A DNA stretch of 64,000 nt from Modestobacter sp. VKM Ac-2982 (GTDB lineage Bacteria; Actinomycetota; Actinomycetes; Mycobacteriales; Geodermatophilaceae): positions 248,001 to 312,000 of the forward strand of contig NZ_JAPVBL010000001.1 of assembly GCF_026967935.1 (NCBI RefSeq). The letters run 5' to 3'. A model generated the notes under the pieces. It made no database searches and had not been told where the DNA came from. It saw only the letters and a program-made list of their open reading frames with translations. This document shows positions 27,597 through 46,650 of this stretch, piece by piece. The position numbers and the translations under genes were made by a program. Positions within the stretch are counted from its first letter, which is position 1. Every line of letters begins with the position of its first letter.

Positions 27597-27618
27597 GCGA
27601 GTTCCTCCTACAGAAGGA

Positions 27619-27644
27619 GGGGCCAAAATCGCGACTTTGGCCCC
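27619..27644 (-). terminator. Repeat hairpin copy 3, between the aquaglyceroporin gene and glpK
   Basis: A 26-bp inverted repeat. Its reverse complement equals the core of copy 2, so it is in the opposite orientation to the others. It lies 14 bases after the aquaglyceroporin stop and 22 bases before the glpK start, so it would attenuate read-through into glpK or stabilise the upstream mRNA end. Confidence 0.55.
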
Positions 27645-27658
27645 CGGAAGGGGTCGGG

Positions 27659-28396: not shown

Positions 28397-28525
28397 GAGT
28401 AGGCGCTCCTCACGACGGGCCCGCGGCGTCGCGGACCGGGTGGGTCGGTGACGGGTCTGTGGCGGTGATCACCACGCGTCCCGTCGTGGGAGGACCGTAG
28501 GAGGCCGGATGTGAGCTGGACAACA

Positions 28526-28548
28526 GTCGGCGTCCGACACTGTCGCAC
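28526..28548 (-). promoter_or_regulatory. Possible IclR operator upstream of glpF
   Basis: GTCGG-CGT-CCGAC is an inverted repeat inside CAGTCGGCGTCCGACACTG. GTCCGAC-N2-TGTC-N2-AC (28532-28548) also matches 30803-30819 in the iclR/glpD intergenic region at 13 of 17 bases. The shared motif in two glycerol-gene promoters suggests one regulator; weak evidence. Confidence 0.35.
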
Positions 28549-28556
28549 CGACCGGC

Positions 28557-30747: not shown

Positions 30748-30798
30748 GACGCCCGACGCTAGGCCATCGGGGGCCCGGATGGTGACCCAGCACACCCG

Positions 30799-30819
30799 GG
30801 TCGTCCGACCATGTCAGAC
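30799..30819. promoter_or_regulatory. Possible IclR operator in the iclR/glpD gap
   Basis: GGTCG-TC-CGACC (30799-30810) is a perfect inverted repeat, and GTCCGACCATGTCAGAC (30803-30819) resembles the element upstream of glpF. It lies between the divergent iclR start and the glpD -10 box. Confidence 0.35.
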
Positions 30820-30851
30820 AGCGGGCGTCGACGGCCTTCCCGGCGCCGACC

Positions 30852-30857
30852 TACCGT
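30852..30857 (+). promoter_or_regulatory. -10 box for glpD
   Basis: TACCGT fits TANNNT, 48 bases upstream of the glpD ATG. A GAGGAG ribosome site is within the leader. Confidence 0.45.
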
Positions 30858-30905
30858 GGCATCGTGCGCCGTCGTCGGCGACGGCCCGTACCGAGGAGTT
30901 CCCCC

Positions 30906-32633
30906 ATGACGGCAGTCCGCACACTCGGTCCCGAGCAGCGTGCCCAGGCCTGGGCCGACCTCGCGGCCGGCGAGTTCGAGGTCCTGGTGATCGGTGGCGG
31001 GGTGACGGGTGCCGGTGTCGCGCTGGACGCGGCGACCCGGGGGCTCCGGACGGCGCTGGTCGAGGCGCGTGACTTCGCCAGTGGCACCTCCTCGCGCTCC
31101 TCCAAGCTGTTCCACGGCGGGCTGCGCTACCTGGAGCAGTTCGACTTCGGGCTGGTCCGGGAGGCGCTGCACGAGCGCGACCTGTCGGTCAACCGGATCG
31201 CCCCGCACCTGGTCAAGCCGGTGCCGTTCCTCTACCCGCTGACCCGGCACTGGGAGCGGCCCTACGTCACCGCCGGGATCACCCTCTACGACGGCCTGGC
31301 CCGTCTGGGGTCGCTGTCCGCCCCGATGCCGGCGCAGAAGCAGCTGACCCGCACCGGTGCCCGGCGGCTCTTCCCCGCCCTGAAGCCGGACTCCCTCGTC
31401 GGCGCCATCCGCTACTACGACGCCCAGGCCGACGACGCCCGGCACACCCTCTCCGTGGCGCTCACCGCAGCCTCCTACGGCGCGACCGTGCTCAACTCCG
31501 CCGAGGTCGTCTCGTTCTCCCACGCCGGTGGCCGCGTCGTCGGTGCCCGGGTGCGCGACGTGGAGACCGGGAACGAGGTCGACGTCCGCAGCGAGGTGGT
31601 GGTCAACGCCACCGGCGTCTGGACCGACGACATCCAGACGCTGGTCGGTGGCCGCGGCCGGTTCCACGTGCGGGCCAGCAAGGGCGTGCACATCGTCGTG
31701 CCCCGCGACCGGATCAACGGTGAGACGGGCCTGATCCTGCGCACCGAGAAGTCGGTGCTCTTCGTCATCCCGTGGGGCAGCCACTGGATCGTCGGGACCA
31801 CGGACACCGACTGGGAGCTGGACAAGGCCCACCCGGCGGCCAGCAAGGCCGACATCGACTACATCCTCGACCACGTCAACGAGGTGCTGTCCGTCCCGCT
31901 GACGCACGAGGACATCACCGGCGTCTACGCCGGGCTGCGCCCGCTGCTGTCCGGGGAGAGCGAGTCGACCAGTCAGCTGTCCCGCGAGCACGCCGTCGCC
32001 CGGCCGATGCCCGGGGTCATCTCCGTCGCCGGCGGGAAGTACACGACGTACCGGCCGATGGCCGCCGACGCCGTGGACGCCGCGGCCGACGACGTCACCC
32101 GCCGGGTCCCGCCGAGCGTCACCGAGAACATCCCGCTGGTCGGCGCCGAGGGCTACGCGGCGATGGTCAACTCCCTCGACGGGCTCTCCGACCGCTGGGG
32201 CATCCCGCGGTTCCGCGCCGAGCACCTGATCAACCGGTTCGGCTCGCTGACCCCCGAGGTGCTCGGTCTGGCCGCCGAGGCGCCCGAGCTCCTCGACCCG
32301 GTCCCCGGCGCCGAGGAGTACCTGATGGTCGAGATGGTGTGGTCGGCCGCGCACGAGGCCGCGCTGCACCTGGACGACCTCCTGGCCCGGCGCACCCGGA
32401 TCTCCATCGAGACCCCGCACCGGGGAGTGGAGTCCGCCGAGCCGGTCGCCCGGGCCGTGGCCGGCGTGCTGGGCTGGGACGAGGAGCGGATCACCAGCGA
32501 GGTGCAGAGCTACCGGGCCCGGGTGGAGGCCGAGCGGCGGTCGCAGGAGGCCACCGACGACCAGGAGGCGGACGCCGCGCGGATCGCCGCACCGGACACC
32601 CGCGCCGTGGCCGTGGGCCGCGCCCTGGGCTGA
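30906..32633 (+). CDS. glpD: Glycerol-3-phosphate dehydrogenase (FAD-dependent, respiratory)
   Basis: A 575-residue flavoprotein that oxidises glycerol-3-phosphate to dihydroxyacetone phosphate and passes electrons to quinone. It has the N-terminal FAD-binding VLVIGGGVTGAGVALDAATRG, then SRSSKLFHGGLRYLEQFDF, GPHLVKPVPFLYP-type residues, and TTDTDWELDKAHP in the middle. A C-terminal DAO_C helical domain follows. The ATG at 30906 follows GAGGAG; the frame is open to 30864. Divergent from iclR, so it shares control with the kinase/porin genes and completes glycerol entry into glycolysis. Confidence 0.95.
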   Translation: MTAVRTLGPEQRAQAWADLAAGEFEVLVIGGGVTGAGVALDAATRGLRTALVEARDFASGTSSRSSKLFHGGLRYLEQFDFGLVREALHERDLSVNRIAPHLVKPVPFLYPLTRHWERPYVTAGITLYDGLARLGSLSAPMPAQKQLTRTGARRLFPALKPDSLVGAIRYYDAQADDARHTLSVALTAASYGATVLNSAEVVSFSHAGGRVVGARVRDVETGNEVDVRSEVVVNATGVWTDDIQTLVGGRGRFHVRASKGVHIVVPRDRINGETGLILRTEKSVLFVIPWGSHWIVGTTDTDWELDKAHPAASKADIDYILDHVNEVLSVPLTHEDITGVYAGLRPLLSGESESTSQLSREHAVARPMPGVISVAGGKYTTYRPMAADAVDAAADDVTRRVPPSVTENIPLVGAEGYAAMVNSLDGLSDRWGIPRFRAEHLINRFGSLTPEVLGLAAEAPELLDPVPGAEEYLMVEMVWSAAHEAALHLDDLLARRTRISIETPHRGVESAEPVARAVAGVLGWDEERITSEVQSYRARVEAERRSQEATDDQEADAARIAAPDTRAVAVGRALG

Positions 32634-35691: not shown

Positions 35692-36780
35692 ATGAGCGCC
35701 CCTGCCCCCGACGTCGCCGAGCTGATCCGCGAGCTGGTGCGGACCCCGACCGTCTCCGGGGACGCGGCCGGTCAACGGGGCCTGCTCGGCCTGGTCACCG
35801 ACGTCGTGACCGGGGTTGCGCCGCACCTCCAGCGCATCGAGGGCCCCGACCGCGAGCAACCGTGGACCCTGCTCACCTCCGCCACCGACCCGGCGAGGCC
35901 GCGGCTGGTCATCGCCTGCCATGTCGACACGGTCCCGGCGAGCGATCCCGGCGGGTGGCTGCGGGACCCGTTCGGCGCAGACCTGGACGACGGCCGGATC
36001 TGGGGTCGTGGTGCCTCGGACATGAAGGCGGGGGTGGCGGCTGCGGTCGCGGCGCTGGCCGCAGCCGATCCGGAGACGCCGCTCGCGCTGCTGCTCACCA
36101 GTGACGAGGAGATCGGCTCGCGGGGTGCCGCCGCCGCGGCGGGGGCCGTGGCGGAACTGTCGGTGGGCGCCGTCATCGTCCCGGAGGCGACGGGCAACCG
36201 GGTGGTCCTGGGCCACCGGGGTGCGCTGTGGCTCGCCGTCCGGACCCGGGGGGTCGCCGCCCACGGGAGCACCCCCGAACGCGGCCACAACGCACTGCTG
36301 GACCTGGTCACGGTGCTCAGCCGGGCGGGCCGGGAGCTGCCGCTGAGCAGGGACCCGTTCCTGGGCGCCGAGACCTGGAACCCCGGCGTGCTGCACAGCG
36401 GCACGGTGCCCAACGTCGTCCCGGACCGGGCCGAGGTGGTGATCGACCAGCGGACCGTGGGCACCGGTGAGCGGCTGGCGGCCTGGTGGCGGTCGCAGGG
36501 AGAGGTGGCGGAGGTCGACGTGCTCGTCGACCTCCCGGCGGTGCGGACGCCGGCCGACGACCCCTGGGTGGCCACCCTGCCCGTCGAGGTGCAGGCTGCC
36601 CCGGCCACCTACTTCACCGACGCCTCCGTGCTCACCGCGGTCACCGGCGGGGCGCCGATCGTCGTGTGGGGGCCGGGCACCCCCGCGGTGATGCACGCCG
36701 TGGACGAGTACGTCCAGGTGGTCGAGGCGGAGCAGGCCGCCGCCGCGTTCGCCGACGTCCTCGGCCGCTGGCCGCGGTGA
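35692..36780 (+). CDS. M20-family metallopeptidase / deacylase
   Basis: A 362-residue dinuclear zinc amidohydrolase. Zinc ligands and catalytic residues are visible in order: ACHVDTVP (His and Asp), GRGASDMKAG (bridging Asp), LTSDEEIGS (catalytic Glu and ligand Glu), VPEATGN (Glu) and GPGTPAVMHAVDE (last His). A lid domain carries GVAAHGSTPERGHNA. The family includes DapE, ArgE and carboxypeptidases; I cannot choose among them. It starts 38 bases after the MmpL gene and may be read through from it. Confidence 0.85.
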   Translation: MSAPAPDVAELIRELVRTPTVSGDAAGQRGLLGLVTDVVTGVAPHLQRIEGPDREQPWTLLTSATDPARPRLVIACHVDTVPASDPGGWLRDPFGADLDDGRIWGRGASDMKAGVAAAVAALAAADPETPLALLLTSDEEIGSRGAAAAAGAVAELSVGAVIVPEATGNRVVLGHRGALWLAVRTRGVAAHGSTPERGHNALLDLVTVLSRAGRELPLSRDPFLGAETWNPGVLHSGTVPNVVPDRAEVVIDQRTVGTGERLAAWWRSQGEVAEVDVLVDLPAVRTPADDPWVATLPVEVQAAPATYFTDASVLTAVTGGAPIVVWGPGTPAVMHAVDEYVQVVEAEQAAAAFADVLGRWPR

Positions 36781-36818: not shown

Positions 36819-37823
36819 TCAGCGGCTGGTGCTCGACCGGATGGTGAGCGAAGGCCGTAGCGCCACCCGCGAAGGCGGGGCGTCCTGCGCACCGAGCACC
36901 CGCGACAGCAGGCGCACCGCCTCGGCCGCGATCTCCGCCTGCGGCTGCCTGACGGTGGTCAGGGACGGATGACTGAGCGCCGCGAACGGGATGTCGTCGA
37001 ACCCGGTGACCAGCAGGTCGCGGGGGACGTCGACGCCTGCTGCTGCGCACGACTGCAGCATCCCGAGGGCGATCAGGTCGTCGGCGCAGACGACGGCGTC
37101 CGGTCGGGGGCCGTCGGCCAGCAGTGTGCGGGCGGCCTGTCGCCCCCACTCGATCGAGTACTCGCCCAGCAGGACGTCCCGCTCGCGCACGGCGATGCCC
37201 AGGCGTTCGGCGTGCCGGTGGAAGCCCGCGACCCGCAGTTCCGTCGATGAGTTGGTGAGCTGCGAGCTGACGAACGCGGCGGAGCGGACACCCCGGTCGG
37301 CCAGGTGCTCCATGACCAGTTCCAGTGCGGCGTCGTCGTCGACCCCGACCCAGTCGCTGTCGACCCCGGTGACGTAGCGGTCGACCTGGACCAGGGGCAG
37401 CTCGTCCGCGGCCCGCCGCACCGCGGTCGTGCTCAGGCTGCCGTGCACCGGGCTGATGATGATGCCGTCGACCTGGCGGGCGACGAGGCTGCGCAGTCGC
37501 TGCGCCTCCAGCTCCGGGTCCGAGCGGGAGGAGCACAGGAAGAGCTGTCGGCCGGCGTCCTGCAGGGCGTGCTCGACGTGCTCGACGAGGCCGGTGAAGA
37601 AGGGGTTGGCGATGCTGGGGACCACCATGCCGACGGTGTCGGTCCGGCTGCGACGCAGTGCGCTGGCGATGCCGTTCCCGGCGTAGCCGAGCTCGTCGGC
37701 GGCGCGACGGACCTGGTCGACGACGGCCGGGGAGACCGGCTTGGCCCCGGACAGTGCGCGGGAGACGGTCGCGGTCGACACCTGCGCCAGCTCGGCGACG
37801 TCGCGGATGGTCACCCGCCCCAC
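36819..37823 (-). CDS. LacI-family transcriptional regulator
   Basis: A 334-residue regulator. The N-terminal VTIRDVAELAQVSTATVSRALSG helix-turn-helix and hinge are typical, and the C-terminal domain has a periplasmic-binding-protein fold (PDAVVCADDLIALGMLQSCAAAGVDVP, LLVTGFDDIPFAAL). It is divergent from the BtpA-kinase-ABC operon, and two LacI-consensus operators bracket that operon's promoter. It very likely represses the operon until a sugar or sugar-like metabolite binds. Confidence 0.93.
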   Translation of the reverse strand: MGRVTIRDVAELAQVSTATVSRALSGAKPVSPAVVDQVRRAADELGYAGNGIASALRRSRTDTVGMVVPSIANPFFTGLVEHVEHALQDAGRQLFLCSSRSDPELEAQRLRSLVARQVDGIIISPVHGSLSTTAVRRAADELPLVQVDRYVTGVDSDWVGVDDDAALELVMEHLADRGVRSAAFVSSQLTNSSTELRVAGFHRHAERLGIAVRERDVLLGEYSIEWGRQAARTLLADGPRPDAVVCADDLIALGMLQSCAAAGVDVPRDLLVTGFDDIPFAALSHPSLTTVRQPQAEIAAEAVRLLSRVLGAQDAPPSRVALRPSLTIRSSTSR

Positions 37824-37937
37824 GCGCCCTCCTCTGTCGGTCCACTGACCACGTCATCATCGCCGACCGCGCGTGCGGGAGCGTGCCGCACGTCCGTGTC
37901 CAACGGATGACGCACGACTGACCAGCGGAAACACGAA

Positions 37938-37951
37938 TGTAAACGATTGCC
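37938..37951. promoter_or_regulatory. LacI operator 1
   Basis: TGTAAACGATTGCC matches the LacI-family pattern TGnAAnCGnTTnCx at every fixed position. It lies just upstream of the -35 of the catabolic operon and about 115 bases from the lacI start codon. Confidence 0.8.
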
Positions 37952-37953
37952 TA

Positions 37954-37984
37954 TTGACGGGACAGTGGGGTTCGCCACTACCGT
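37954..37984 (+). promoter_or_regulatory. Promoter of the LacI-controlled catabolic operon
   Basis: TTGACG at 37954 (-35) and TACCGT at 37979-37984 (-10, TANNNT) are 19 bases apart, between the two LacI operators. Confidence 0.6.
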
Positions 37985-37995
37985 CGTCCTCGTTG

Positions 37996-38009
37996 TGCAA
38001 TCGATTACC
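37996..38009. promoter_or_regulatory. LacI operator 2
   Basis: TGCAATCGATTACC matches TGnAAnCGnTTnCx. It lies just after the expected transcription start and 58 bases downstream of operator 1, which suits repression by blocking or looping. Confidence 0.8.
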
Positions 38010-38024
38010 TGGATGGGTGTGGAC

Positions 38025-38864
38025 ATGGCAGCGCAGCTCGGTGTGTACCCCCGCAAGCCCTCGGCGATGGCCGAGCTCTTCGGCACGGAGAAGACGCTCG
38101 TGGGTGCTGTGCACCTGCCTCCGCTGCCCGGCAGCCCCTCCTACCGCGGTCAGTCGGTGGCCGAGCTGTGCCGGTTCGCCGTCGAGGAGACGCAGGCCTA
38201 CGTCGGCAACGGCTTCGACACGGTGATCGTGGAGAACCACTGGGACCTGCCGTTCCTCAAGCCGGGGGAACACGGGTACGAGGTGGCCGCGACGATGGGC
38301 GTGATCACCGCCGCCGTCGTCGCCGAGCTCGGCACGAAGGTGGGGGTCAGCGTGCTCTCCAACGCCGGCCAGTGCTCGGTCGCCGCCGCCTGGGCCGCCG
38401 GGGCAGGCTGGATCCGGGTCAACCAGTGGGCCAACGCCTACGTGGCCAACGAGGGGATCATCGAGGGCCAGGCGGCCAGCACCACCCGGTACCGGCACGC
38501 GATCGGGGCCGACCCGGTGAAGGTCTTCGCCGACGTGCACGTCAAGCACGGCGCACACGCCATCGTCGCCGACCGGACGCTGGCCGAGCAGACCGAGGAC
38601 GCCGAGTTCTTCGACGCCGACGTCCTGATCGCCACCGGCTCCCGCACCGGGCACCCGACGTCCGTGGCCGAGGTCGTCGGCATCCGCGACCACACTCAGC
38701 TCCCCGTGATCATCGGCAGCGGCATCGACCCGACCAACGTCGGTCCACTGCTCGCCGAGTGCGACGGCGCGATCGTCGCCTCCGCCGCCAAGGAGAACAG
38801 CCGGTGGTGGGGCCGGGTCGACCCCGAGAAGGTGCGCGCCGTCGCCCGGGCAGCCGGCCGGTGA
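38025..38864 (+). CDS. BtpA/SgcQ-family TIM-barrel protein
   Basis: A ~279-residue BtpA/SgcQ family protein. LVGAVHLPPLPGSP near the start, GVSVLSNAGQ, VFADVHVKHGAHAI, and the C-terminal phosphate-binding loops ATGSRTGHPT and IIGSGIDPTNVGPLL are visible; these resemble phosphate-binding TIM barrels. The enzymatic role of the family is not established. The frame is open from 37947, but that region holds the promoter and operator, so the start is ATG 38013 or 38025. It is the first gene of the operon and overlaps the kinase gene. I infer that it acts on the kinase product. Confidence 0.85.
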   Translation: MAAQLGVYPRKPSAMAELFGTEKTLVGAVHLPPLPGSPSYRGQSVAELCRFAVEETQAYVGNGFDTVIVENHWDLPFLKPGEHGYEVAATMGVITAAVVAELGTKVGVSVLSNAGQCSVAAAWAAGAGWIRVNQWANAYVANEGIIEGQAASTTRYRHAIGADPVKVFADVHVKHGAHAIVADRTLAEQTEDAEFFDADVLIATGSRTGHPTSVAEVVGIRDHTQLPVIIGSGIDPTNVGPLLAECDGAIVASAAKENSRWWGRVDPEKVRAVARAAGR

Positions 38865-39751
38865 TCGTCTTCTGCGGGTACGCCAACCTCGACGTGGTCG
38901 GCCGGGTGCCCCACGTCCCGCGTCCCGACGAGCGGGTGCACGCCGTCACCGTGGAGCACCTGCCGGGCGGGATGGCCGCCAACGCGGCGGTCGCCGCCGC
39001 CCGCGCCGGAGCGCAGGTCGCCTTCGCCGGCGTGGTCGGCGACGACCCGCTGTCCGCCCGGTTCCTCGCCGAGCTCACCGCTGAGGGCATCGACACCGGG
39101 TGGACCGACCGCACCGGTTTCCTGTCCACCGCGATCGTGCTGGTGGACGCCGACGGCCGGCGCTCGGTGGTGAGCGAGGACGACGCCCTGGGGCCGGCCC
39201 ACGTGACAGCGGTCGCCGACCGGCTGGCTGCCGACGGTGGGCTGCTCTACCTCGACGGCTACCGCGCGGCAGAGCTCGAGCAGGCCGTCCGGGCCGGGGT
39301 CCGCCTGGCCGTCGACCTCGACGGCTGCGACGACCGCGACGTCGCCCTCGCCGCGATGCAGGCCGCCGACCACGTCGTCGTCGGGCGCCGGCGGCTCACC
39401 GAGCTCCTGGCGGTGCCGGCTGCCGAGTGGGCCGCGCTGGCACGTGCCGCCGGGGTGACGCTCGTCGTCACCGACGGGGCTCGGGGATGGTCACTGCACC
39501 AGCCCGACGGTCCGGTGGCGGCCCGGTCCGCGCTCGAGGTCGAGGTCGTCGACGACACCGGGGCCGGCGACTGCTTCACCGGCACCTACCTGGCCGCGCT
39601 GGCCGCCGGCTCATCCCCGCCCACCGCGGCGACCCGTGCCGGCGTCGCCGCCAGCCTGTCCTGCACCGTCCCGGGCGCGCGCGCCGCGCCCGCCCCGGCA
39701 CTCGTCGACGCAGCTCTGGCCGGGGTTCCGGTCGGCTCGTCTGCCACCTGA
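38861..39751 (+). CDS. PfkB-family carbohydrate/nucleoside kinase
   Basis: A 296-residue ribokinase-fold kinase. PGGMAANAAVAAARAGAQV and FAGVVGDDP form the substrate-binding PfkB signature 1. DDTGAGDCFTGTYLAAL is signature 2, with the catalytic Asp and anion hole. It would phosphorylate the imported sugar or sugar-like compound. The GTG start overlaps the BtpA-gene stop (GTGA). It sits between a BtpA barrel and an importer; substrate not identifiable. Confidence 0.88.
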   Translation: MIVFCGYANLDVVGRVPHVPRPDERVHAVTVEHLPGGMAANAAVAAARAGAQVAFAGVVGDDPLSARFLAELTAEGIDTGWTDRTGFLSTAIVLVDADGRRSVVSEDDALGPAHVTAVADRLAADGGLLYLDGYRAAELEQAVRAGVRLAVDLDGCDDRDVALAAMQAADHVVVGRRRLTELLAVPAAEWAALARAAGVTLVVTDGARGWSLHQPDGPVAARSALEVEVVDDTGAGDCFTGTYLAALAAGSSPPTAATRAGVAASLSCTVPGARAAPAPALVDAALAGVPVGSSAT

Positions 39752-39837
39752 CGCACCACCTGCACCGCCGCTCCCCCGCACCACCGTTCCCGCGCACCGC
39801 GATCCCGCAGCATCCGGCACCGCACCCTGGAGGACCC

Positions 39838-40848
39838 ATGAAGCGCCCCCTCGCCCTAGCCGCAGGCGCGTGCCTGCTCGCGCTGACCGCCTGCGACAGC
39901 GCCCCTGCGCCGTCGACCGACGCCGAAGCCAGTGGCAGCTCGTCGGCCGGCTCGCTGCCGGAGCCCAGCGTCCAGCCGGTCGGCTGCGAGACCGACGAGC
40001 CCCTGGAGATCGGGCTCGTGACGATCAACCTGCAGGCGCTGTTCTTCAACCAGATCAACGACGCCGCGCAGGCGATGGCCGACGAGTACGACGTCGACCT
40101 GCAGATCATCAGCGGCAACGACGACTCGGTGACCCAGGCGAACGCGATCAACACGCTGGTCGCCGACGGGGTGGACGCGGTGATCGTGGCCGCGGTCGAC
40201 ACCGAGGGCATCAAGCCGGCGATCCGGGCGGCCGACGAGGCCGGCGTCCCCGTCGTGGCGGTCGACGCCATCGTCGACGACCCGGCGGTGGACGCCCAGG
40301 TCGGCACGGCGAACGCCGAGGGCGGGCAGCTGATCGGTGAGGAGCTGCTGGAGATCTCCGAGGGCGAGGGCGAGGTCGGCATCGTCAGTGCGCTGAACAG
40401 CACCATCCAGCTGGAGCGTCAGCAGGGCTTCGAGGAGGCCGTCACCGCCGGTGGGATGACCATCGGCACCGTGGTCGACGGCCGCAACATCCAGGAGAAC
40501 GCCCAGGCGGCCGCGGAGAACCTGCTCACCGGCAACCCGGACCTGCAGTACGTCTACGCCACCGGCGAGCCGGCGCTCATCGGCCTGGCCGCCGGGGTGC
40601 GCAGCCAGGGCGCCCAGGACCGGGTGACCGCTGTCGGCTGGGACCTCTCCGACCCTGCCGTCGAGGGCCTGGAGGAGGGCTGGATCGCCGGCGTCGTCCA
40701 GCAGAACACCTTCGAGTTCGGCTACCAGGCGATGGCTGCGGCGATCGACCTGGCGTGCGGCAACCCGGTGGAGCGGGAGAACCCGGTCGACATCCAGATC
40801 GTGACGCCGGAGAACGTCTCCGACTACCTCTACTACCTGGAGGGCTGA
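39838..40848 (+). CDS. Sugar-type ABC transporter substrate-binding lipoprotein (RbsB-like)
   Basis: A 336-residue lipoprotein. The signal peptide ends in the lipobox LTAC with Cys19. The mature part is a type I periplasmic-binding fold of the RbsB/xylose class: IGLVTINLQALFFNQINDA, DGVDAVIVAAVDTEGIKPAI, ADEAGVPVVAVDA and NLLTGNPDLQYVYATGEP. This class binds pentoses, hexoses, autoinducer-2 or nucleosides. AGGAGG-like TGGAGGACCC precedes the ATG. Preceded by an 86-base gap after the kinase gene. Confidence 0.9.
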   Translation: MKRPLALAAGACLLALTACDSAPAPSTDAEASGSSSAGSLPEPSVQPVGCETDEPLEIGLVTINLQALFFNQINDAAQAMADEYDVDLQIISGNDDSVTQANAINTLVADGVDAVIVAAVDTEGIKPAIRAADEAGVPVVAVDAIVDDPAVDAQVGTANAEGGQLIGEELLEISEGEGEVGIVSALNSTIQLERQQGFEEAVTAGGMTIGTVVDGRNIQENAQAAAENLLTGNPDLQYVYATGEPALIGLAAGVRSQGAQDRVTAVGWDLSDPAVEGLEEGWIAGVVQQNTFEFGYQAMAAAIDLACGNPVERENPVDIQIVTPENVSDYLYYLEG

Positions 40849-40851
40849 CGC

Positions 40852-41613
40852 GTGGCTGACGAGACCGGGGACCTCCTCGTCGAGCTCGAGGGCATCACCA
40901 AGTCCTACGGGCCGGTGAAGTCACTGCGCGGGGTCGACCTCACCCTGCGTCGCGGGGAGGTCCTCGGCCTCGTCGGCGACAACGGTGCCGGCAAGTCCAC
41001 GCTGATGAAGGTGCTGGCCGGGGCCGTGCAGCACGACGCCGGGGAGATCCGGGTGCACGGCCGGCCGGTGCGCTTCAGCAACCCCTCGGCCGCACAGGAC
41101 GAGAAGATCGGCATCGTCTACCAGGACCTGGCCCTGTGCGACACGCTCGACGTCGCCAGCAACCTGTTCCTCGGCCGGGAACCCCGCAAGGGCCCCTTCA
41201 TCGACCGGAAGGCGATGCATGAGCGGGCCGCGCAGATCCTGGCCGACCTGCACGTCAAGGTCACCAGCACCCACCAGGAGATCGGCACCCTCTCCGGCGG
41301 CCAGCGGCAGACGGTGGCGATCGCCCGGGCGGTGTCCTTCGCCCCCGACGTGCTCATCCTCGACGAGCCGACCGCCGCACTCGCCGTCGCCGAGGTCGAG
41401 TCGGTCCTGCGGCTGATCACCGACGTCGCGCGCCGTGGGGTCGGGGTCATCCTGATCACGCACCGCCTGCAGGACCTCTTCCGGGTCTGCGACCGGATCA
41501 CCGTGATGTACGAGGGGCAGAGCGTCGACGACGCGCTCATCAAGGACCTCGACATCGAGAAGCTCGTCGGTCTCATCACCCGGTCCGCCCCCGGGCAGGA
41601 GGAAGCAGCGTGA
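40852..41613 (+). CDS. Sugar ABC transporter ATP-binding protein (single ABC domain)
   Basis: A 253-residue ATPase with Walker A GDNGAGKSTLMK, signature LSGGQRQTVAIARA, Walker B VLILDEPTAAL and the switch His in LITHRLQDL. RbsA/XylG-type ATPases usually carry two fused ABC domains (~500 residues). This one has a single domain, like FrcA-type proteins, so a homodimer is expected. GTG start three bases after the binding-protein gene; the stop overlaps the permease gene. Confidence 0.92.
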   Translation: MADETGDLLVELEGITKSYGPVKSLRGVDLTLRRGEVLGLVGDNGAGKSTLMKVLAGAVQHDAGEIRVHGRPVRFSNPSAAQDEKIGIVYQDLALCDTLDVASNLFLGREPRKGPFIDRKAMHERAAQILADLHVKVTSTHQEIGTLSGGQRQTVAIARAVSFAPDVLILDEPTAALAVAEVESVLRLITDVARRGVGVILITHRLQDLFRVCDRITVMYEGQSVDDALIKDLDIEKLVGLITRSAPGQEEAA

Positions 41614-42641
41614 CCACCACGACCACCACCGCACCGCCCGGGGAGTCGGCCACCCGGCTGGCCCAGCAGCAGTCCTGGTGGCAGCGGGTGAACAAGGCCA
41701 CCCTGGTCATGGCCGGGGTCACCCTGGCCGTCTGCGTCTTCTTCGCCGTCGCCTCCGACGCCTTCCTGACCTTCGCGAACATCTCCAACGTGGCCACCCA
41801 GGTGGCACCGGTGGTGATCATCGGGGTGGCGATGACGTTCGTCATCACCTCCGGCCAGATCGACCTGTCGGTCGGCTCGATCGTCGCCTTCGTGTCCGCG
41901 GTCTCCGCCCAGCTGCTGCAGACCGGCTGGGACTCCTCTCTCGTCCTGATCGCCGGGGTGCTCATGGGCGCCGGGTGGGGCCTGGTGAACGGGTGGTTCA
42001 CCGCCTACGCCGGGATCCCGGCGTTCATCGTGACGCTGGCGACCCTGTCGGTGATCCGGGGCATCGCGCTGCTGACCACCGAGGGCTTCTCGGTGCCGAT
42101 CGAGCGCTCGACGTTCGTCGCGCAGCTGGGGACGGCGCGGTGGCTCGGCTTCTCCAGCAGCGCCTGGATCGCCCTGGTGTGTGTCGCACTGGGGATCGTG
42201 GTCCTGCACCGGACCCAGTTCGGTCAGTACGTCATCGGCATCGGCTCGGCCGAGGAGTCCGTCCGTCGAGCCGGCGTGAACGTGCGGCGGATCAAGATGC
42301 TGGCGCTCTGCCTGAGCGGACTCGCCGCCGGGGTGGCCGGCCTCCTCATCGCCGCCCGGCTCGGCTCCGGCTCGGCGAACGCCGCCCAGGGCTTCGAGCT
42401 CACGGTCATCGCCGCGGTCGTCATCGGCGGCACCAGCCTCTTCGGCGGGCGGGGAACGGTGGTGGGCACGCTGATCGGGGCCATCCTGACCGGGGTGATC
42501 GCCAACGGGCTCACCCTGATGGGCGTCAGCCCGTTCCTGACGCCGATCATCACCGGGACGGTGCTGCTCGCCGTCATCTGGGTGAACCTCCGCGGCAAGG
42601 ACATCGGCGGGGCACTGCGTGGCCTGGTGGGCGGCCGGTGA
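41610..42641 (+). CDS. Sugar ABC transporter permease (RbsC-like)
   Basis: A 343-residue membrane permease with 8-10 hydrophobic helices. The conserved BPD_transp_2 blocks are VTSGQIDLSVGSIVAF, GIPAFIVTLATLSVIRGIAL, IGSAEESVRRAGVNVRRIK and AAVVIGGTSLFGGRGTVVGT. With the binding protein and ATPase it completes a high-affinity importer. It overlaps both neighbours by four bases. Confidence 0.93.
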   Translation: MTTTTTTAPPGESATRLAQQQSWWQRVNKATLVMAGVTLAVCVFFAVASDAFLTFANISNVATQVAPVVIIGVAMTFVITSGQIDLSVGSIVAFVSAVSAQLLQTGWDSSLVLIAGVLMGAGWGLVNGWFTAYAGIPAFIVTLATLSVIRGIALLTTEGFSVPIERSTFVAQLGTARWLGFSSSAWIALVCVALGIVVLHRTQFGQYVIGIGSAEESVRRAGVNVRRIKMLALCLSGLAAGVAGLLIAARLGSGSANAAQGFELTVIAAVVIGGTSLFGGRGTVVGTLIGAILTGVIANGLTLMGVSPFLTPIITGTVLLAVIWVNLRGKDIGGALRGLVGGR

Positions 42642-43675
42642 GCACGGTCCGCACGGTCCTCGGCGACGTCGACTCGGCCGACCTGGGCCTGGTGCTGCCC
42701 CACGAGCACCTGGTCAACGACAACACCGTGGCCTTCCGCCCCGCGGCCGACCAGCGGCTGCGTCGGCTGCTGGACGCACCGGTGTCGGCGGACCTGGCCT
42801 GGCTCCTGGCCGACCATCCCTACGAGAACGCCGACAACTGCCGGCTGGACGACCTCGACGCGATCGCCGCGGACCTGCAGGTGTTCGCCGCCGTCGGTGG
42901 GCGGACCGTCGTCGACCTGACCCCACCGGGGATCGGCCGCGACCCGGAGCGGCTGCGCGCGCTGTCCGAACGCACCGGTGTGCAGGTGGTCATGGGCTCG
43001 GGCTGGTACCTCCAGGCCAGCCACCCGGCACACCTGGCGACGACGACGCCGGACGAGCTGGCCGCCGAGCTGGTGGCCGAGTTCGACCCCGTGCACGACC
43101 TCCGGCCCGGCGTCATCGGCGAGATCGGGGTCTCCCCCGCCTTCACCGACGACGAGCGGACCGCGCTGCGGGCGGCCTGCCGGGCGCAGCGCGAGGTCGG
43201 GGTGCCGCTGTTCGTGCACCTCCCCGGCTGGCTGCGGCGCGCCCACGAGGTCCTCGACGTCGTGCTGGACGAGGAGGGGGTCGACCCGGCCGCCGTCGTC
43301 CTGTGTCACATGGACCCCTCCGGCGGGGACCCCGATCACCAGCGGTCGGTCGCCGCCCGGGGGACGTTCCTGGAGTTCGACATGGTCGGCATGCCGTTCG
43401 ACTTCCCCGGCGAGGGCCGGTCGCCGTCACCGGCGGAGACCACTGCCGCCGTCGTGGCGCTGGTCCAGGCCGGGCACGGCTCCCGGGTCCTGCTCTCGCA
43501 CGACCTCTTCCTCAAGGCGATGCTCAGCCGCTTCGGCGGCAACGGGCTGGCCTACGTCCCCGTCGTCTTCGCCGACCGGCTGCGCGCTGCCGGCCTCGCC
43601 GACGACGCGGTGGCCGCACTCATGACCGACAACCCGCGGACGTTGTTCGACGGCGCCGCACGGAAGGAACGCTGA
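42638..43675 (+). CDS. Phosphotriesterase-family metallohydrolase
   Basis: A 345-residue amidohydrolase-superfamily barrel. Metal ligands are visible: LPHEHLVND (HxH after strand 1), GVIGEIGVS (Glu in the place of the carboxylated Lys of true phosphotriesterases), LFVHLPG (His), LCHMDPSGG (His) and LLSHDLF (Asp). Members such as Php and PLL lactonases hydrolyse lactones or phosphoesters, so a sugar-lactone or related ring is plausible here. The GTG start overlaps the permease stop. Exact substrate unknown. Confidence 0.88.
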   Translation: MSTVRTVLGDVDSADLGLVLPHEHLVNDNTVAFRPAADQRLRRLLDAPVSADLAWLLADHPYENADNCRLDDLDAIAADLQVFAAVGGRTVVDLTPPGIGRDPERLRALSERTGVQVVMGSGWYLQASHPAHLATTTPDELAAELVAEFDPVHDLRPGVIGEIGVSPAFTDDERTALRAACRAQREVGVPLFVHLPGWLRRAHEVLDVVLDEEGVDPAAVVLCHMDPSGGDPDHQRSVAARGTFLEFDMVGMPFDFPGEGRSPSPAETTAAVVALVQAGHGSRVLLSHDLFLKAMLSRFGGNGLAYVPVVFADRLRAAGLADDAVAALMTDNPRTLFDGAARKER

Positions 43676-43678
43676 CCG

Positions 43679-44428
43679 ATGGCCCGGATCCTGATCGCCG
43701 GTGAGAGCTGGATGACCACCTCGACGCACGTCAAGGGGGTGGACGAGTTCTCCGTGCACTCCTACGTGGAGGGCGTCGGACCGCTGCGTGACGCGCTCAC
43801 CGGTCGCGGTCACGTGGTGGAGCACCTGCCGGCGCACCTCGTGCCGACCCACTTCCCGGGGGACGCCGCAGCACTGTCCGCCTACGACCTCGTGGTGCTC
43901 TCCGACATCGGCGCGAACTCCATCCAGCTGGCCCCCCAGGTGTTCGAGCGGTTCGAACCCGGTCAGGACCGCCTCGGGGCGCTGCGCGACTGGGTGGCCG
44001 ACGGCGGCGCGCTGCTGATGATCGGCGGCTATCTGTCCTTCAGCGGCTTCCAGGCGCGGGCGGCGTTCCGGCAGACGGCGATCGCCGAGGTGCTCCCGGT
44101 GACGATGCTCCCCGAGGACGACCGGGTGGAGAGCCCGGCCGGCATCGCGCCCACGGTCGTCGACCCCGACCACGCCGCACTGGGTGGTGCAGGCGCGGAC
44201 TGGCCCGGGCTGCTCGGGTACAACCGGACGATCGCCAAGGACGGCGCCGAGGTGCCCGCCCGGGTGGGCGAGGACCCGCTGGTCGCGCTGGCCCCCTTCG
44301 GTGCCGGCCGGGCCGGGGTCTTCACCTCCGACTGCTCGCCGCACTGGGCGCCGCCGGCCTTCTGCGAGGAGTGGCCGGGCTACGCGGACCTCTTCGACGG
44401 CCTGGTGCGCTGGCTGGTCCGCGGGTGA
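43679..44428 (+). CDS. GATase1-like (ThuA/DUF1355-type) protein
   Basis: A 249-residue protein of the putative glutamine-amidotransferase-like family (PF07090 type): ILIAGESWMTTSTHVKGVDEF at the N-terminus, YDLVVLSDIGANSI, and WVADGGALLMIGGYLSFSGF at the elbow where class I amidotransferases have their nucleophile Cys. No Cys is present at that elbow (GGY), so amidotransferase activity is doubtful. SPHWAPPAF lies near the end. Homologues commonly accompany sugar-use genes. ATG start three bases after the metallohydrolase gene. Confidence 0.78.
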   Translation: MARILIAGESWMTTSTHVKGVDEFSVHSYVEGVGPLRDALTGRGHVVEHLPAHLVPTHFPGDAAALSAYDLVVLSDIGANSIQLAPQVFERFEPGQDRLGALRDWVADGGALLMIGGYLSFSGFQARAAFRQTAIAEVLPVTMLPEDDRVESPAGIAPTVVDPDHAALGGAGADWPGLLGYNRTIAKDGAEVPARVGEDPLVALAPFGAGRAGVFTSDCSPHWAPPAFCEEWPGYADLFDGLVRWLVRG

Positions 44429-45060
44429 CGGGCGGTCGCTCGGCGTGGCTGGTCGAGCGGCACGCCGCCCTGCTGGACCGGGCCTGCGACGTCCGGTTCG
44501 TCCGGGAGGCGACGGCGGGCACGCTCCCCGCCCCCGACTTCGCCCGGTACCTCCTGGTCGAGGAGGCGTTCGTGCTGACCGCGGCCCGGGTCCTCGGCCG
44601 GGTCGTGTGGGAGTCGGACGGGTGGGCGGGGCTGCTGCCGTCGGCTCGGTCGCTCACCAACCTCGTCACCGAACAGCGCGACTACTTCGCCGGCCTGCGT
44701 CACCGCTGGCCGGTCGAGGACGCAGCCGCGACGCTGGCGCGCGCCGAGGTGCTCTCCGAGGTGGTGTTGCGACAGGTGACCGAGGCCGGCCGGCCCGCCG
44801 CGCTGACCGGGATGCTCGCCGCCGAGACGATGTATGCCCGCTGGTGCACCGACGCCGCCGCCCAGCGGGTCGACCGGCACCCCGACCTGCAGGCGTGGAT
44901 CGACCTGCACGCCGGGCCCGCCTTCCTGGGGCAGGTGGCGGCCCTCCGCGCCGACGTCGACGCGCTGTCACCGGAGTTGGCTGACGACACCGCCCTGGAC
45001 TGCTGGTTCGCCGCGGTGCTGGAGGCGGAGATCGCGTTCCACGACGCCGTCCACGGCTGA
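44425..45060 (+). CDS. TenA-like (thiaminase II / PqqC fold) protein
   Basis: A 211-residue helical-bundle protein of the TenA/HO-like fold: FARYLLVEEAFVLTAARVLGR, LTNLVTEQRDYF and LAAETMYARWCTDAA, ending in CWFAAVLEAEIAFHDAVHG. The nucleophilic Cys of classic TenA (in the LPCxxxY segment) is replaced here by Ala-Glu, as far as alignment by eye allows, so this may be a TenA_E-like or repurposed enzyme acting on a pyrimidine-like or amine substrate. Last gene of the operon; the GTG overlaps the previous stop. It is under LacI, not TPP riboswitch, control. Confidence 0.75.
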   Translation: MTGGRSAWLVERHAALLDRACDVRFVREATAGTLPAPDFARYLLVEEAFVLTAARVLGRVVWESDGWAGLLPSARSLTNLVTEQRDYFAGLRHRWPVEDAAATLARAEVLSEVVLRQVTEAGRPAALTGMLAAETMYARWCTDAAAQRVDRHPDLQAWIDLHAGPAFLGQVAALRADVDALSPELADDTALDCWFAAVLEAEIAFHDAVHG

Positions 45061-45061
45061 G

Positions 45062-45095
45062 CCGGGTCCCGGTTCCACGTGGAACCGGGACCCGG
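45062..45095. other. parS: 34-bp perfect palindrome with parS core, end of the catabolic operon
   Basis: All 17 base pairs around the centre (45078/45079) are symmetric. The middle 14 bases (45072-45085) are GTTCCACGTGGAAC, the ParB-binding core; the arms add CCGGGTCCCG-type GC pairs. It begins two bases after the tenA-like stop, so it can also fold as a strong terminator hairpin. Third parS-like copy. Confidence 0.75.
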
Positions 45096-45129: not shown

Positions 45130-46068
45130 GTGAACGAGTTCGATCTGGTGCTGCCGACGGCGGTCGACGTCCGCGAGGTCGGGATGCGGGACGGGCTCCA
45201 GCTGGAGGACCCGGTCCCCCTGGCCGGCAAGCTGGCCATGCTCGAGGCGCTGGTGGCCACCGGCGTCCGGCGGATCGAGGTGACCTCCTTCGTCTCGCCG
45301 AAGGCGGTGCCGGCCCTGGCCGACGCCGACCAGGTCGCCGCCGAGCTGCACCGCTTCGACGGCGTGCACTTCTCCGCCCTGGTGGCCAACCCGCGGGGCG
45401 CCGTCCGCGCGGTGGACGCCGGCATCGCGCACCTGGAGTACGTCGTCTCCGCCGCCGACTCGCACAGCCGCGCCAACGCCGGGCGCTCCACCGCCGAGGC
45501 GGTCGCCGCGGTCGGGGAGATCGCCGAGCTCGCCCACGGCGCCGGCGGCTCCCTGGAGGTCATCGTCGCCACCGCCTGGGACTGTCCGTTCGACGGGCGG
45601 ACGCCGGTGGCCCGGACCGTGGACGTCACCCGGGCCGCGGTCACCGCCGGCGCCGACCAGCTCTGCCTGGGCGACACGATCGGCACGACCACCCCGGCCC
45701 GCGTCGTCCGGCTGCTCGACGAGGTCCGCCGGGCCTGCCCGGGGGTGCCGCTGGGCGTGCACTTCCACGACACCCGCGGCACCGGCCAGGCCAACGCCCT
45801 GGCCGCCCTGCAGGCCGGCATCACCCAGCTCGACGCCTCGGTCGGCGGCCTGGGCGGGTGCCCGTTCGCCCCGGGCGCCAGCGGCAACATCGCCACCGAG
45901 GAGCTCGTCTACTGGCTGGCCGACGCCGACGTGGCGACCGGCATCGACCTGGACGCCGTCCTCGCCGCGGCTGCGGTCACCGAACGGGCCGTCGGCCACG
46001 AGCTGCCCAGCTCCCTGTTCCGGGCCGGCGGGCGCAACGAGCCGCGCGGCGCGGTCCTGCCGGCCTGA
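45130..46068 (+). CDS. mvaB: Hydroxymethylglutaryl-CoA lyase
   Basis: A 312-residue TIM-barrel lyase that splits HMG-CoA to acetyl-CoA and acetoacetate (leucine degradation, ketone metabolism). VREVGMRDGLQLE near the start carries the catalytic Arg-Asp pair. GVHFHDTRGTGQANAL supplies the metal His pair, and VGGLGGCPFAPGASGN holds the catalytic Cys loop diagnostic for this enzyme versus isopropylmalate synthases. The GTG at 45130 follows GAGGAGG. It stands alone, without the usual acyl-CoA carboxylase genes. Confidence 0.92.
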   Translation: MNEFDLVLPTAVDVREVGMRDGLQLEDPVPLAGKLAMLEALVATGVRRIEVTSFVSPKAVPALADADQVAAELHRFDGVHFSALVANPRGAVRAVDAGIAHLEYVVSAADSHSRANAGRSTAEAVAAVGEIAELAHGAGGSLEVIVATAWDCPFDGRTPVARTVDVTRAAVTAGADQLCLGDTIGTTTPARVVRLLDEVRRACPGVPLGVHFHDTRGTGQANALAALQAGITQLDASVGGLGGCPFAPGASGNIATEELVYWLADADVATGIDLDAVLAAAAVTERAVGHELPSSLFRAGGRNEPRGAVLPA

Positions 46069-46125
46069 CCGTGGGTGACCGGTCGCACGGTGCCCCACCG
46101 GGTCGCGCGTGATGGGATCGACGGT

Positions 46126-46650
46126 GTGAACCAAGGCGCAGACGTCCCCCCGGCAGTGGTCGACCCCTCGGTGATGCGGGACGTGCTGGGCCACTTCGTC
46201 TCCGGCGTCACCGTGGTGACGGCGATGACCGCCGACGGCCCGGTGGGCTTCACCTGCCAGTCGTTCAGCTCGCTGTCCCTGGACCCGCCGCTGGTCGCCT
46301 TCGCCCCGGCCCGCACCTCGCGCACGTGGCCGCTGCTCCGCGAGGCCGGCCGCTTCTGTGTCAACGTGCTCGCCGACGAGCAGAGCGGCCTGTCCCGGCA
46401 GTTCGCCCGCTCCGGCACCGACAAGTACGCCGGCGTGCAGTGGGCACCGAGCCCGCACGGGTCACCGGTGCTCGCCGACGTCGTCGCCTGGATCGACAGC
46501 GAGCTGTGGGCCGAGTACGGCGGCGGTGACCACACCATCGTCGTCGCCCGGGTGCTGGACCTCGGGGCTGATGCCTCCCGTACGCCGCTGCTGTTCCACC
46601 GCGGCGCCTACGGGCTCCAGCAGGCACGGCTGGAGCCCGAGGAGCGCTGA
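46126..46650 (+). CDS. Flavin reductase-like (NADH:FMN) protein
   Basis: A 174-residue member of the flavin reductase-like FMN-binding family: MRDVLGHFVSGVTVVTAMT, GFTCQSFSSLSLDPPLVAF and FCVNVLADEQSGLSRQF are the flavin-binding signature blocks. HTIVVARVLDL follows near the C-terminus. Such proteins supply reduced flavin to two-component monooxygenases or act as stand-alone reductases; no monooxygenase partner is adjacent. GTG start 57 bases after the HMG-CoA lyase gene. Confidence 0.88.
   Translation: MNQGADVPPAVVDPSVMRDVLGHFVSGVTVVTAMTADGPVGFTCQSFSSLSLDPPLVAFAPARTSRTWPLLREAGRFCVNVLADEQSGLSRQFARSGTDKYAGVQWAPSPHGSPVLADVVAWIDSELWAEYGGGDHTIVVARVLDLGADASRTPLLFHRGAYGLQQARLEPEER

Follow-up and report, generated by a model that had tools for sequence, protein, structure and literature searches.

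A conserved LacI-controlled operon of Modestobacter with PfkB and BtpA-family proteins, probably for the catabolism of a nucleoside-like N-riboside

The window analysed here, a stretch of 64,000 nucleotides from Modestobacter sp. VKM Ac-2982, contains a LacI-repressed operon that probably takes up a nucleoside-like N-riboside with a CUT2-type ABC transporter and breaks it down by a PfkB kinase, a BtpA-family barrel and other enzymes (Table 1). Sequence comparison establishes the gene set, its conservation, the alternation of BtpA with a nucleoside hydrolase in sister operons, and the pocket and operator common to both operon types. As the sister operons carry a nucleoside hydrolase together with the same binding pocket and a recurring operator, an N-riboside, nucleoside-like in character, is the most probable ligand, and so PfkB and BtpA appear to stand in for nucleoside hydrolase and ribokinase. 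According to the literature searched, no described pathway matches this catabolic unit, and the first-pass annotation of the locus as an undescribed operon was upheld.

Table 1. Features of the operon and its surroundings (positions in the window)
Feature	Coordinates	Strand	Evidence and remarks
M20 metallohydrolase, ArgE/DapE-like amidase	35692..36780	+	PF01546; outside the coordinates first given for the operon
LacI-family repressor	36819..37823	-	PF00356 and PF13377
Putative LacI operator 1	37939..37950	+	GTAAACGATTGC
Putative LacI operator 2	37997..38008	+	GCAATCGATTAC; 58 bases from operator 1
BtpA/SgcQ-family barrel	38025..38864	+	PF03437, 1.3e-60
PfkB-family kinase	38861..39751	+	PF00294; proposed riboside or ribose 5-kinase
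CUT2-type substrate-binding protein	39838..40848	+	PF13407; signal-like N-terminus
ABC ATPase, single-domain, 253 aa	40852..41613	+	PF00005
CUT2-type permease	41610..42641	+	PF02653
PTE-family metallohydrolase	42638..43675	+	PF02126; proposed amide or ester hydrolase
GATase1_like protein	43679..44428	+	PF07090, 2e-87
TenA-like protein without the TenA cysteine	44425..45060	+	weak PF03070; AlphaFold model
Perfect palindrome, 34 bases, after TenA	about 45062..45095	.	possible terminator without T tract

The arrangement of LacI opposite eight same-strand genes was confirmed from the coordinates, and the junctions from BtpA to the TenA-like gene are, in order, -4, 86, 3, -4, -4, 3 and -4 bases. 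The palindrome reported at the end of the operon is perfect, but the terminator scan detected no T-tract terminator at this place. A sigma-70 promoter scan found none. The importer had been called RbsBAC-type; the binding protein and the permease are of the CUT2 type, but the ATPase is not a two-domain RbsA. The M20 amidase belongs to the set and was missed in the first parts list. The HMGL and flavin reductase genes (45130-46650) were rejected as operon parts, as they lie near the operon in only 5/27 and 8/27 loci, all in Geodermatophilaceae, with one additional 31% match in L028. The upstream MMPL gene was also rejected, being present in L026 only among the 27 loci.

We defined a core locus as binding protein, ATPase, permease, PTE and GATase1-like genes, and 42 core loci were compared. 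A gene was scored as present when tblastn covered 40% or more of the query, and the ORFs of the fetched relatives' DNA were called with a simple ORF caller. The locus counts are not independent events. The first 27 loci were found via the GATase1-like protein and lean to close kin of that protein (many are from Rhodococcus, and L012 is nearly identical to L073), and the plasmid gene tables are incomplete. BtpA and PfkB are present in 33 of the 42 core loci, from actinobacteria and from alpha- and gamma-proteobacteria, with TenA in 29 of those 33. M20 was detected in 31/42 core loci, including 25 of the 33 with BtpA and PfkB, and jointly with TenA in 25/42. The BtpA, PTE, GATase1-like and TenA genes, earlier taken to form one set, are jointly kept in 29/42 core loci, but BtpA and TenA are missing in the five loci with a nucleoside hydrolase. 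The gene order is retained across several genera, and thus the gene set is more than chance; as judged by these comparisons, it is deeply conserved. Nine to ten genes common to actinobacteria, rhizobia and enterics suggest a common nutrient. In a less biased class sample of 394 genomes, 15 PF07090 and 28 BtpA matches were above the cut-off. Counting against the main reading, BtpA is near the PF07090 gene in only 4 of the 15 (the two about 5.5 kb apart), and in G292 and G326 both are present on different contigs. A DNA-level search for E. coli homologues gave no match.

Among the core loci, BtpA occurs in 33, a nucleoside hydrolase in five, both in none and neither in four. Three of the last (L002, L006 and L007) are truncated by the end of the contig ahead of the place of BtpA; the fourth, L024, combines the core with TenA but lacks both BtpA and a nucleoside hydrolase. 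In the five loci of the nucleoside hydrolase type (IUNH-type), which fall into two groups, the core is directly followed by a RihA/UriH-like nucleoside hydrolase (PF01156), with no BtpA and no TenA. PF01156 matches at about 1e-101 in L069 and L074, with RihA and UriH as the best NCBIfam models, below the model cut-offs; for L070, L075 and L076 the assignment is based on sequence similarity and a motif instead of a profile scan. A ribokinase is beside the hydrolase in three of these five operons, and the hydrolase is alone in two. The IUNH-type operons form one clade on the tree of binding proteins and need two changes on the PTE tree. Thus, the alternation represents one or two events, not five. 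The Pfam profile scan found no PF01156 enzyme in the window operon. Outside the operon, however, the Modestobacter genome carries three PF01156 matches, one of them strong, so that a nucleoside hydrolase was not lacking, which counts against the main reading.

The pocket of the window binding protein is identical at 15/15 compared positions to those of the five IUNH-type binding proteins. The same 15 positions are found in 7 of the 9 BtpA-type binding proteins compared, and L022 and L078, like L024, have one or two changes in the pocket. Compared with the ligand residues of RbsB, 9/15 are changed (S9I, N12Q, N13A, R90A, F164N, Q189T, N190G, D191E and F214W); Asn13, Arg90 and Asn190 are ribose-binding in RbsB. 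Plain ribose uptake was rejected on these differences. The closest solved structure by sequence is 5hsg. A nucleoside-like or aminated sugar conjugate had been suggested as the ligand. The sister nucleoside hydrolase and the same pocket favour the nucleoside, and the aminated sugar is no longer on a par with it.

The pattern GYAAWCGATTRC occurs at three places in the 4.78 Mb genome, and two of them are at the window operon. With one mismatch or fewer, four matches (two sites on both strands) were detected in the window against 0.16 expected, a count attained by 1/100 shuffles. A putative operator like GTAATCGATTAC recurs in BtpA-type and IUNH-type operons, and a scan of 18 intergenic regions, from both types, detected the core AATCGATT in 13. 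The exact site CGGGTAATCGATTACCCA is present in Pseudonocardia L016 (BtpA-type) and in L074-L076 (IUNH-type). The operator core is common to the window and L074-L076, and L069 and L070 have a variant form.

From these features we infer the reactions, their order and the exact compound as follows. The nucleoside-like N-riboside would enter through the CUT2-type transporter, and PfkB would phosphorylate its ribose. BtpA may then split off the ribosyl group with its phosphate, or isomerise the compound for separation, giving a pentose 5-phosphate. The PTER-like PTE and the M20 protein would hydrolyse amide-type bonds in the aglycone, the cysteine-less TenA-like protein may take off an amine or acyl-amine, and the PF07090 protein would act somewhere on the ribosylated compound. 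The earlier interpretation is partly supported, with the role of the PTE, the aminated-sugar option and the parts list changed. Its proposed sequence of phosphorylation followed by a BtpA step may hold for a nucleoside-like compound.

The BtpA protein exceeds the cut-offs of PF03437 (205.5 bits against 30) and TIGR00259 (185.3 against 153.4), and the motifs around ENHWD, RVNQWANAYVANEG, DVHVKHG and GSG are kept; Glu70, Asp170 and His172 are conserved. Its structure model is moderate (pLDDT 78.5) and falls among phosphate-binding TIM barrels, with HisF/HisA/TrpF, and also class II aldolases and triose-phosphate isomerase, as fold matches (TM about 0.5-0.6). In the literature searched, we found no settled reaction for BtpA/SgcQ, nor did we find an accepted substrate for BtpA, for PF07090 or for bacterial proteins of this PTE clade. 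PfkB accompanies BtpA in all 34 loci having the GATase1-like gene and BtpA. The class sample has 24 other BtpA places; 20 were fetched, and in 16 of these an FGGY sugar kinase is nearby. The window PfkB has GGMAANAAV where ribokinase-like proteins have GGKGANQAV, in which GGKGANQ is the ribose motif of PfkB ribokinases, and it scores 111 bits against TIGR02152 (cut-off 299.65). The ribokinase-like motif is retained in the proteobacterial BtpA-type kinases, and therefore cleavage may come first, with free ribose as the substrate of the kinase.

The PTE protein has full-length matches to 3k2g (1e-94), Pmi1525 (9e-79) and PTER (7e-44), and its metal ligands H22, H24, E162, H194, H224 and D289 are in the expected motifs. 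It had been regarded as a possible lactonase; instead, it groups with the amide hydrolase PTER and Pmi1525. The N-acetyltaurine hydrolase PTER shares the sequence clade and the metal ligands with it, but the taurine-contacting residues R204, R233 and H300 (PMC11374699) are replaced by Trp198, Pro227 and Phe291 according to our own reading of the alignment register, in which residue numbers of the chain are 7 higher than those of the mouse protein. N-acetyltaurine was thus rejected as the substrate. The piperine amidase is not related, according to the available part of its description (PMC12753220). The M20 protein is 36-40% identical to those of the Pantoea, Klebsiella, Ponticoccus and Streptomyces loci; its gene is convergent with LacI in the window, and on the same strand, overlapping or adjoining LacI, in L022, L069 and L074-L076. 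The GATase1-like protein is related to 2gk3, the structure of STM3548, and to 3soz. Its elbow is GGYLSF, and none of 15 aligned sequences has Cys there. The label "glutamine amidotransferase" denotes no more than family membership, since the nucleophile cysteine is missing. The TenA-like protein matches PF03070 weakly (4e-5, 23.9 bits, cut-off 22), and its predicted AlphaFold model (pLDDT 95; TM 0.86 to 2gm8 by Foldseek) settles the fold as that of TenA. E46, E134 and E202 are invariant in 22 sequences. In a register based on a phmmer alignment and the TenA motif, Ala133 takes the place of the TenA cysteine (C135 in B. subtilis) and Glu46 that of Asp, and Glu134 is adjacent.

Several other explanations bear on the same genes. 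An Amadori-type or other sugar-amine conjugate (opine-like), with PfkB and BtpA as analogues of fructoselysine 6-kinase and deglycase, is an unlikely substrate. HisA and TrpF, which do Amadori chemistry, are among the predicted BtpA fold matches, and at the pTi plasmid locus L037 a 34% GATase1-like relative is beside a fructoselysine 6-kinase, an FrlB-like SIS protein and hydantoinases. However, same-pocket sister operons carry a nucleoside hydrolase, and the operon PfkB proteins scanned score best with ribokinase, not FrlD, although below the cut-offs. In the YlmB-TenA route, deacylation is followed by amine removal by TenA. Salvage of a thiamine-breakdown or similar aminomethyl-pyrimidine product, with M20 as the deacylase, TenA removing the amine and the sugar genes serving a glycosylated form, would account for M20 occurring with TenA in the core loci and for the presence of TenA with hydroxymethylpyrimidine among the structures closest in fold to the TenA-like model. 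We regard it as quite improbable, since the TenA cysteine and Asp are replaced and TenA is missing from 5/5 IUNH-type and 4/33 BtpA-type core loci.

A pathway for a plain sugar or a sugar lactone, with import by CUT2, the PTE as lactonase, the kinase, and BtpA as isomerase, is very unlikely: it has no need for M20, TenA or a nucleoside hydrolase, and the pocket lacks the residues at the positions of the ribose-binding Asn13, Arg90 and Asn190. The CUT2 transporter and PfkB kinase would suit it, some PTE relatives are lactonases, and L071 and L080 share a protein beside the GATase1-like gene that in L071 has the metallo-beta-lactamase fold, like AHL lactonases. The least probable explanation is that BtpA is a stabilising partner and PfkB alone handles ribose freed by PF07090 or PTE. 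The strictly kept polar motifs of BtpA are typical of an active site, and a sugar kinase is often in its company. On the other side, cyanobacterial BtpA interacts with and stabilises GluTR according to the available text (PMC11449065), which implies a role needing no reaction, and the Salmonella cluster is described, in the part of the report at hand, as PfkB, GATase1-like, DMT and PTE genes with no BtpA (PMC13432705).

This Salmonella cluster, rikA (STM3547)-STM3548-STM3549-STM3550, includes a PfkB protein for which ribose kinase activity was measured, and its authors suspect a pathway for an as yet unnamed substrate (McCormick et al. 2026, PMC13432705, available text). Like the window, it combines PfkB, a glutamine-amidotransferase-like protein (STM3548) and a PTE-family protein; it has a DMT transporter where the window has an ABC importer, and BtpA, TenA, M20 and LacI are not named in that text (PMC13432705). 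The Rbs ribose operon resembles the window operon in its LacI regulator, CUT2 importer and ribokinase-family kinase, whereas the window has the single-domain ATPase, the altered pocket and five extra enzymes (BtpA, PTE, PF07090, TenA-like and M20). The nucleoside hydrolase and ribokinase route (RihA/UriH and RbsK) may share the logic of ribose release and phosphorylation, with BtpA and a divergent PfkB instead in the window, plus further hydrolase-type genes. In E. coli sgc, BtpA (SgcQ) is likewise combined with sugar-phosphorylating import and the metallopeptidase-like SgcX, but the import is by PTS, an SgcE epimerase is present, and SgcQ is about 26% identical to the window BtpA.

More tentatively, the BtpA/SgcQ family might cleave N-glycosides in phosphorylated form, or isomerise them, in most cases after a PfkB or FGGY kinase or a PTS has phosphorylated the sugar. 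The operon would then be a second, kinase-first route of nucleoside consumption, used on a modified nucleoside with an aglycone bearing an amide and an amine, for instance a tRNA-turnover product or a ring-opened pyrimidine or pyridine nucleoside. The operon suggests a testable job for BtpA, with consequences for SgcQ of E. coli and for the RikA cluster of Salmonella as well, and the nucleoside-hydrolase link narrows the substrate hunt to one compound class and opens direct tests. The main reading, of a nucleoside-like ligand, is further supported by L034 and L067, in which PF07090 and PfkB are joined with a NAMPT-like transferase and a PRPP synthetase. In L066 the transferase is again found with PF07090 and PfkB, and a nucleoside hydrolase is also present in L066 and L067.

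The operon is a real, deeply conserved catabolic unit. As the first-pass annotation had claimed, LacI on the minus strand lies opposite a plus-strand run of eight genes: BtpA, PfkB, binding protein (SBP), ABC ATPase, permease, PTE, GATase1-like (GAT, PF07090) and TenA-like. Its tight junctions were confirmed, with spacings of -4, 86, 3, -4, -4, 3 and -4 bases. The palindrome said to end the operon is a perfect 34-base one located 3' of TenA, and the terminator scan found no T-tract terminator-like site there. Of the proposed RbsBAC importer, the ABC importer genes are present, but the ATPase is a single-domain protein of 253 aa and not a two-domain RbsA. The eight-gene parts list was incomplete, as an M20 amidase gene had been overlooked.

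Coordinates of the operon and its flanking features in the window
Feature	Position	Strand	Remark
M20 amidase gene	35692-36780		convergent with LacI, upstream of operon
LacI gene	36819-37823	-	Pfam
Near-palindrome copy 1	37939-37950		LacI-BtpA intergenic region
Near-palindrome copy 2	37997-38008		LacI-BtpA intergenic region
Eight-gene run, BtpA to TenA-like	38025-45060	+	Pfam families

Searching at the protein level with the GATase1-like gene yielded a first set of 27 related loci (L-numbers). The order LacI/BtpA-PfkB-SBP-ABC-Perm-PTE-GAT-TenA is constant in this set from Geodermatophilaceae to Rhodococcus, Pseudonocardia and Amycolatopsis. There are exceptions: Arthrobacter L022 lacks TenA, Frigoribacterium L024 lacks both BtpA and PfkB, and Glaciihabitans L028 has solely the GATase1-like gene; L002, L006 and L007 are truncated by contig ends. 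The same genes in shuffled order were detected in the plasmid collection (Rhizobium L030, Pantoea L031, Ponticoccus L035, Pannonibacter L049) and on a Klebsiella chromosome (L047). Reduced sets occur in Streptomyces L033 (M20, LacI, GAT, DMT, PTE) and Roseomonas L048 (LacI, GAT, BtpA, PfkB and an oligopeptide-type transporter). Among 394 genomes of the class, PF07090 exceeded the cut-off in 15 and BtpA in 28. The two families lie about 5.5 kb apart in four genomes (G000, G375, G400, G477), where TenA adjoins the GATase1-like gene, and on separate contigs in G292 and G326. No description of the operon or of a BtpA reaction was present among the matches listed from open-licence PMC papers.

Fifteen PF07090 neighbourhoods were fetched. 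In five (L069, L070, L074-L076), M20, LacI and SBP-ABC-Perm-PTE-GAT are present, and a nucleoside hydrolase (IUNH, PF01156) directly follows GAT; ribokinase comes next in three. Neither BtpA nor TenA was found in these five IUNH-type loci. The L069 and L074 hydrolases match PF01156 at about 1e-101 and are closest to the RihA and UriH models, under the model cut-offs. Profile scans cover these two, and the hydrolases of L070, L075 and L076 were assigned by similarity and motif. Among the 42 core loci (SBP, ATPase, permease, PTE and GATase1-like gene), 33 have BtpA, five have the nucleoside hydrolase, none has both and four have neither, namely L024 and three loci cut short by contig ends. All five IUNH types group as a single clade in the SBP tree, adjoining proteobacterial BtpA types. 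In the PTE tree, with seven IUNH rows including L066 and L068, IUNH needs two changes. According to the trees, the alternation thus reflects one or two exchanges, not five.

We compared 15 SBP positions corresponding to the ribose-pocket lining of RbsB. The set I Q A F F D A R N T G E W D Q is shared by the window, L012, L030, L036, L047, L072, L077 and all five IUNH types; RbsB has S N N F F D R R F Q N D F D Q. The SBPs of L022, L024 and L078 are one or two positions off, and two further binding proteins (in L078 and L079) lack the set. Across the whole genome, only three matches to the near-palindrome pattern occur. Its AATCGATT core was detected in 13 of 18 intergenic regions scanned, of both BtpA-type and IUNH-type operons. 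Variants of the core occur in L069, L070 and L077, a different palindrome in L022, and none was found in L073. The pocket and putative operator shared with IUNH-type operons suggest that the ligand is most likely a nucleoside-like N-riboside.

PF07090 in other settings bears on this reading. In a Rhodococcus aetherivorans plasmid (L034), L066 and L067, PF07090 is accompanied by PfkB and a NAMPT-like phosphoribosyltransferase (profile-scanned in L034 and L066, by similarity in L067), with PRPP synthetase in L034 and L067 and nucleoside hydrolase in L066 and L067 (scanned in L067). Such company is expected if PF07090 acts on N-ribosyl compounds, and the clusters look like base degradation via ribose tagging with recycling of the ribose. 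A contrary hint comes from pTi locus L037, which has fructoselysine-type genes in the company of a distant PF07090 protein. Overall, we lean towards a nucleoside-like substrate for the operon.

PfkB is present in all 34 loci having the GATase1-like gene and BtpA. It was predicted beforehand that BtpA outside the operon should neighbour a sugar-phosphorylating device, and 20 of 24 such places were fetched. FGGY kinase was found in the fetched stretch at 16 of the 20; two (L096, L099) are close to contig ends, and at two (L100/L106, L103/L107) no kinase was found in the fetched stretch. Halobellus BtpA adjoins a PfkB-family gene, a second Rhizobium BtpA adjoins FGGY kinase, and E. coli sgcQ (BtpA) sits inside the sgc PTS operon. 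Mesorhizobium BtpA (L052), with no annotated kinase nearby, counts against the prediction. The kinase motif is GGM.ANAAV or near it in actinobacterial BtpA-type operons and GGKG.NQ in IUNH-type and proteobacterial operons. It is thus plausible that PfkB would act before BtpA in the window operon. The BtpA model (pLDDT 78.5) resembles the TIM barrels HisF, HisA, TenI, ThiE, TrpF and MJ1099 (TM about 0.5-0.6), and also matches class II aldolases and triose-phosphate isomerase. Robust ribose kinase activity is reported for the kinase of a PfkB-PF07090-DMT-PTE cluster in Salmonella, for which the authors propose an unknown substrate (PMC13432705), and a review states that cyanobacterial BtpA is now tied to GluTR stability (PMC11449065).

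The nearest solved structures to the window PTE are 3k2g, Pmi1525 and PTER, the last of which hydrolyses N-acetyltaurine (PMC11374699). The metal ligands are retained, and PTER R204, R233 and H300 are replaced by Trp198, Pro227 and Phe291 (alignment register read by eye). These replacements make a sulfonate a less likely substrate than an amide or ester of larger size or aromatic character. The PF07090 protein lacks the glutaminase cysteine, with GGYLSF at that place. The proposed TenA-like protein holds: the sequence match is weak (Pfam 4e-5), and the fold is firm by structure (AlphaFold pLDDT 95; TM 0.86 to 2gm8, P. aerophilum TenA with hydroxymethylpyrimidine). Glu46, Glu134 and Glu202 are invariant in 22 sequences, and the TenA cysteine was not found in the window protein. 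TenA-like genes occur in 29/33 BtpA-type and 0/5 IUNH-type core loci.

M20 is present in 31 of the 42 core loci (25/33 BtpA-type, 5/5 IUNH-type and L024), and was not found in Rhizobium L030 and Pannonibacter L049. The window protein shows 36-40% identity to those of the Pantoea, Klebsiella, Ponticoccus and Streptomyces loci. In Arthrobacter L022, L069 and L074-L076, M20 lies on the LacI strand, 3' of LacI. Alphaproteobacterial L036 and L050 lack ArgE-type M20 and TenA and have a 'Zn-dependent hydrolase', which in L036 is a hydantoinase/carbamoylase-family amidase (NCBIfam).

Several minor observations were made. M42 or M29 peptidase-like genes adjoin BtpA-FGGY kinase loci (L095 6374-7405, L084 3003-4097), a parallel to SgcX beside SgcQ in E. 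coli; BtpA may thus often have an amidase as its partner. The Mesorhizobium plasmid cluster (L052 79-10834) places BtpA among phosphoribosyl-type biosynthetic genes (PurH, SAICAR synthetase and phosphoribosylanthranilate isomerase by annotation), with annotated beta-RFAP synthase and Rieske protein; perhaps a natural product is made on a phosphoribosyl precursor. The NAMPT-like clusters (L034 6849-15807, L066 1457-11587, L067 3590-12345) also contain HAD-type phosphatase, LacI and LLM monooxygenase (scanned in L034 only). L071 (4954-11323) and L080 (898-6867) have PF07090 without the core CUT2 importer and PTE, beside an NMT1/SsuA-type binding protein and a metallo-beta-lactamase-fold protein (both scanned in L071); L080 shares the latter. 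Frigoribacterium L024 (11442-13822) contains TenA, an M28 peptidase and a 393-aa protein with no Pfam/NCBIfam match at the limits used. An IS1 copy adjoins the PfkB match in one Klebsiella chromosome (L047 10353-11729). In the window, an HMG-CoA-lyase-like gene and flavin reductase (45130-46650) lie downstream of the operon and share its strand; they occur near some Geodermatophilaceae loci and were not found in the other genera of the 27-locus set, except for a 31% flavin-reductase match in L028. A glycerol block (26079-32633; names assigned by eye from translations) comprises two GlpK-like kinases, an aquaporin-type facilitator, an IclR regulator and a GlpD-like dehydrogenase.
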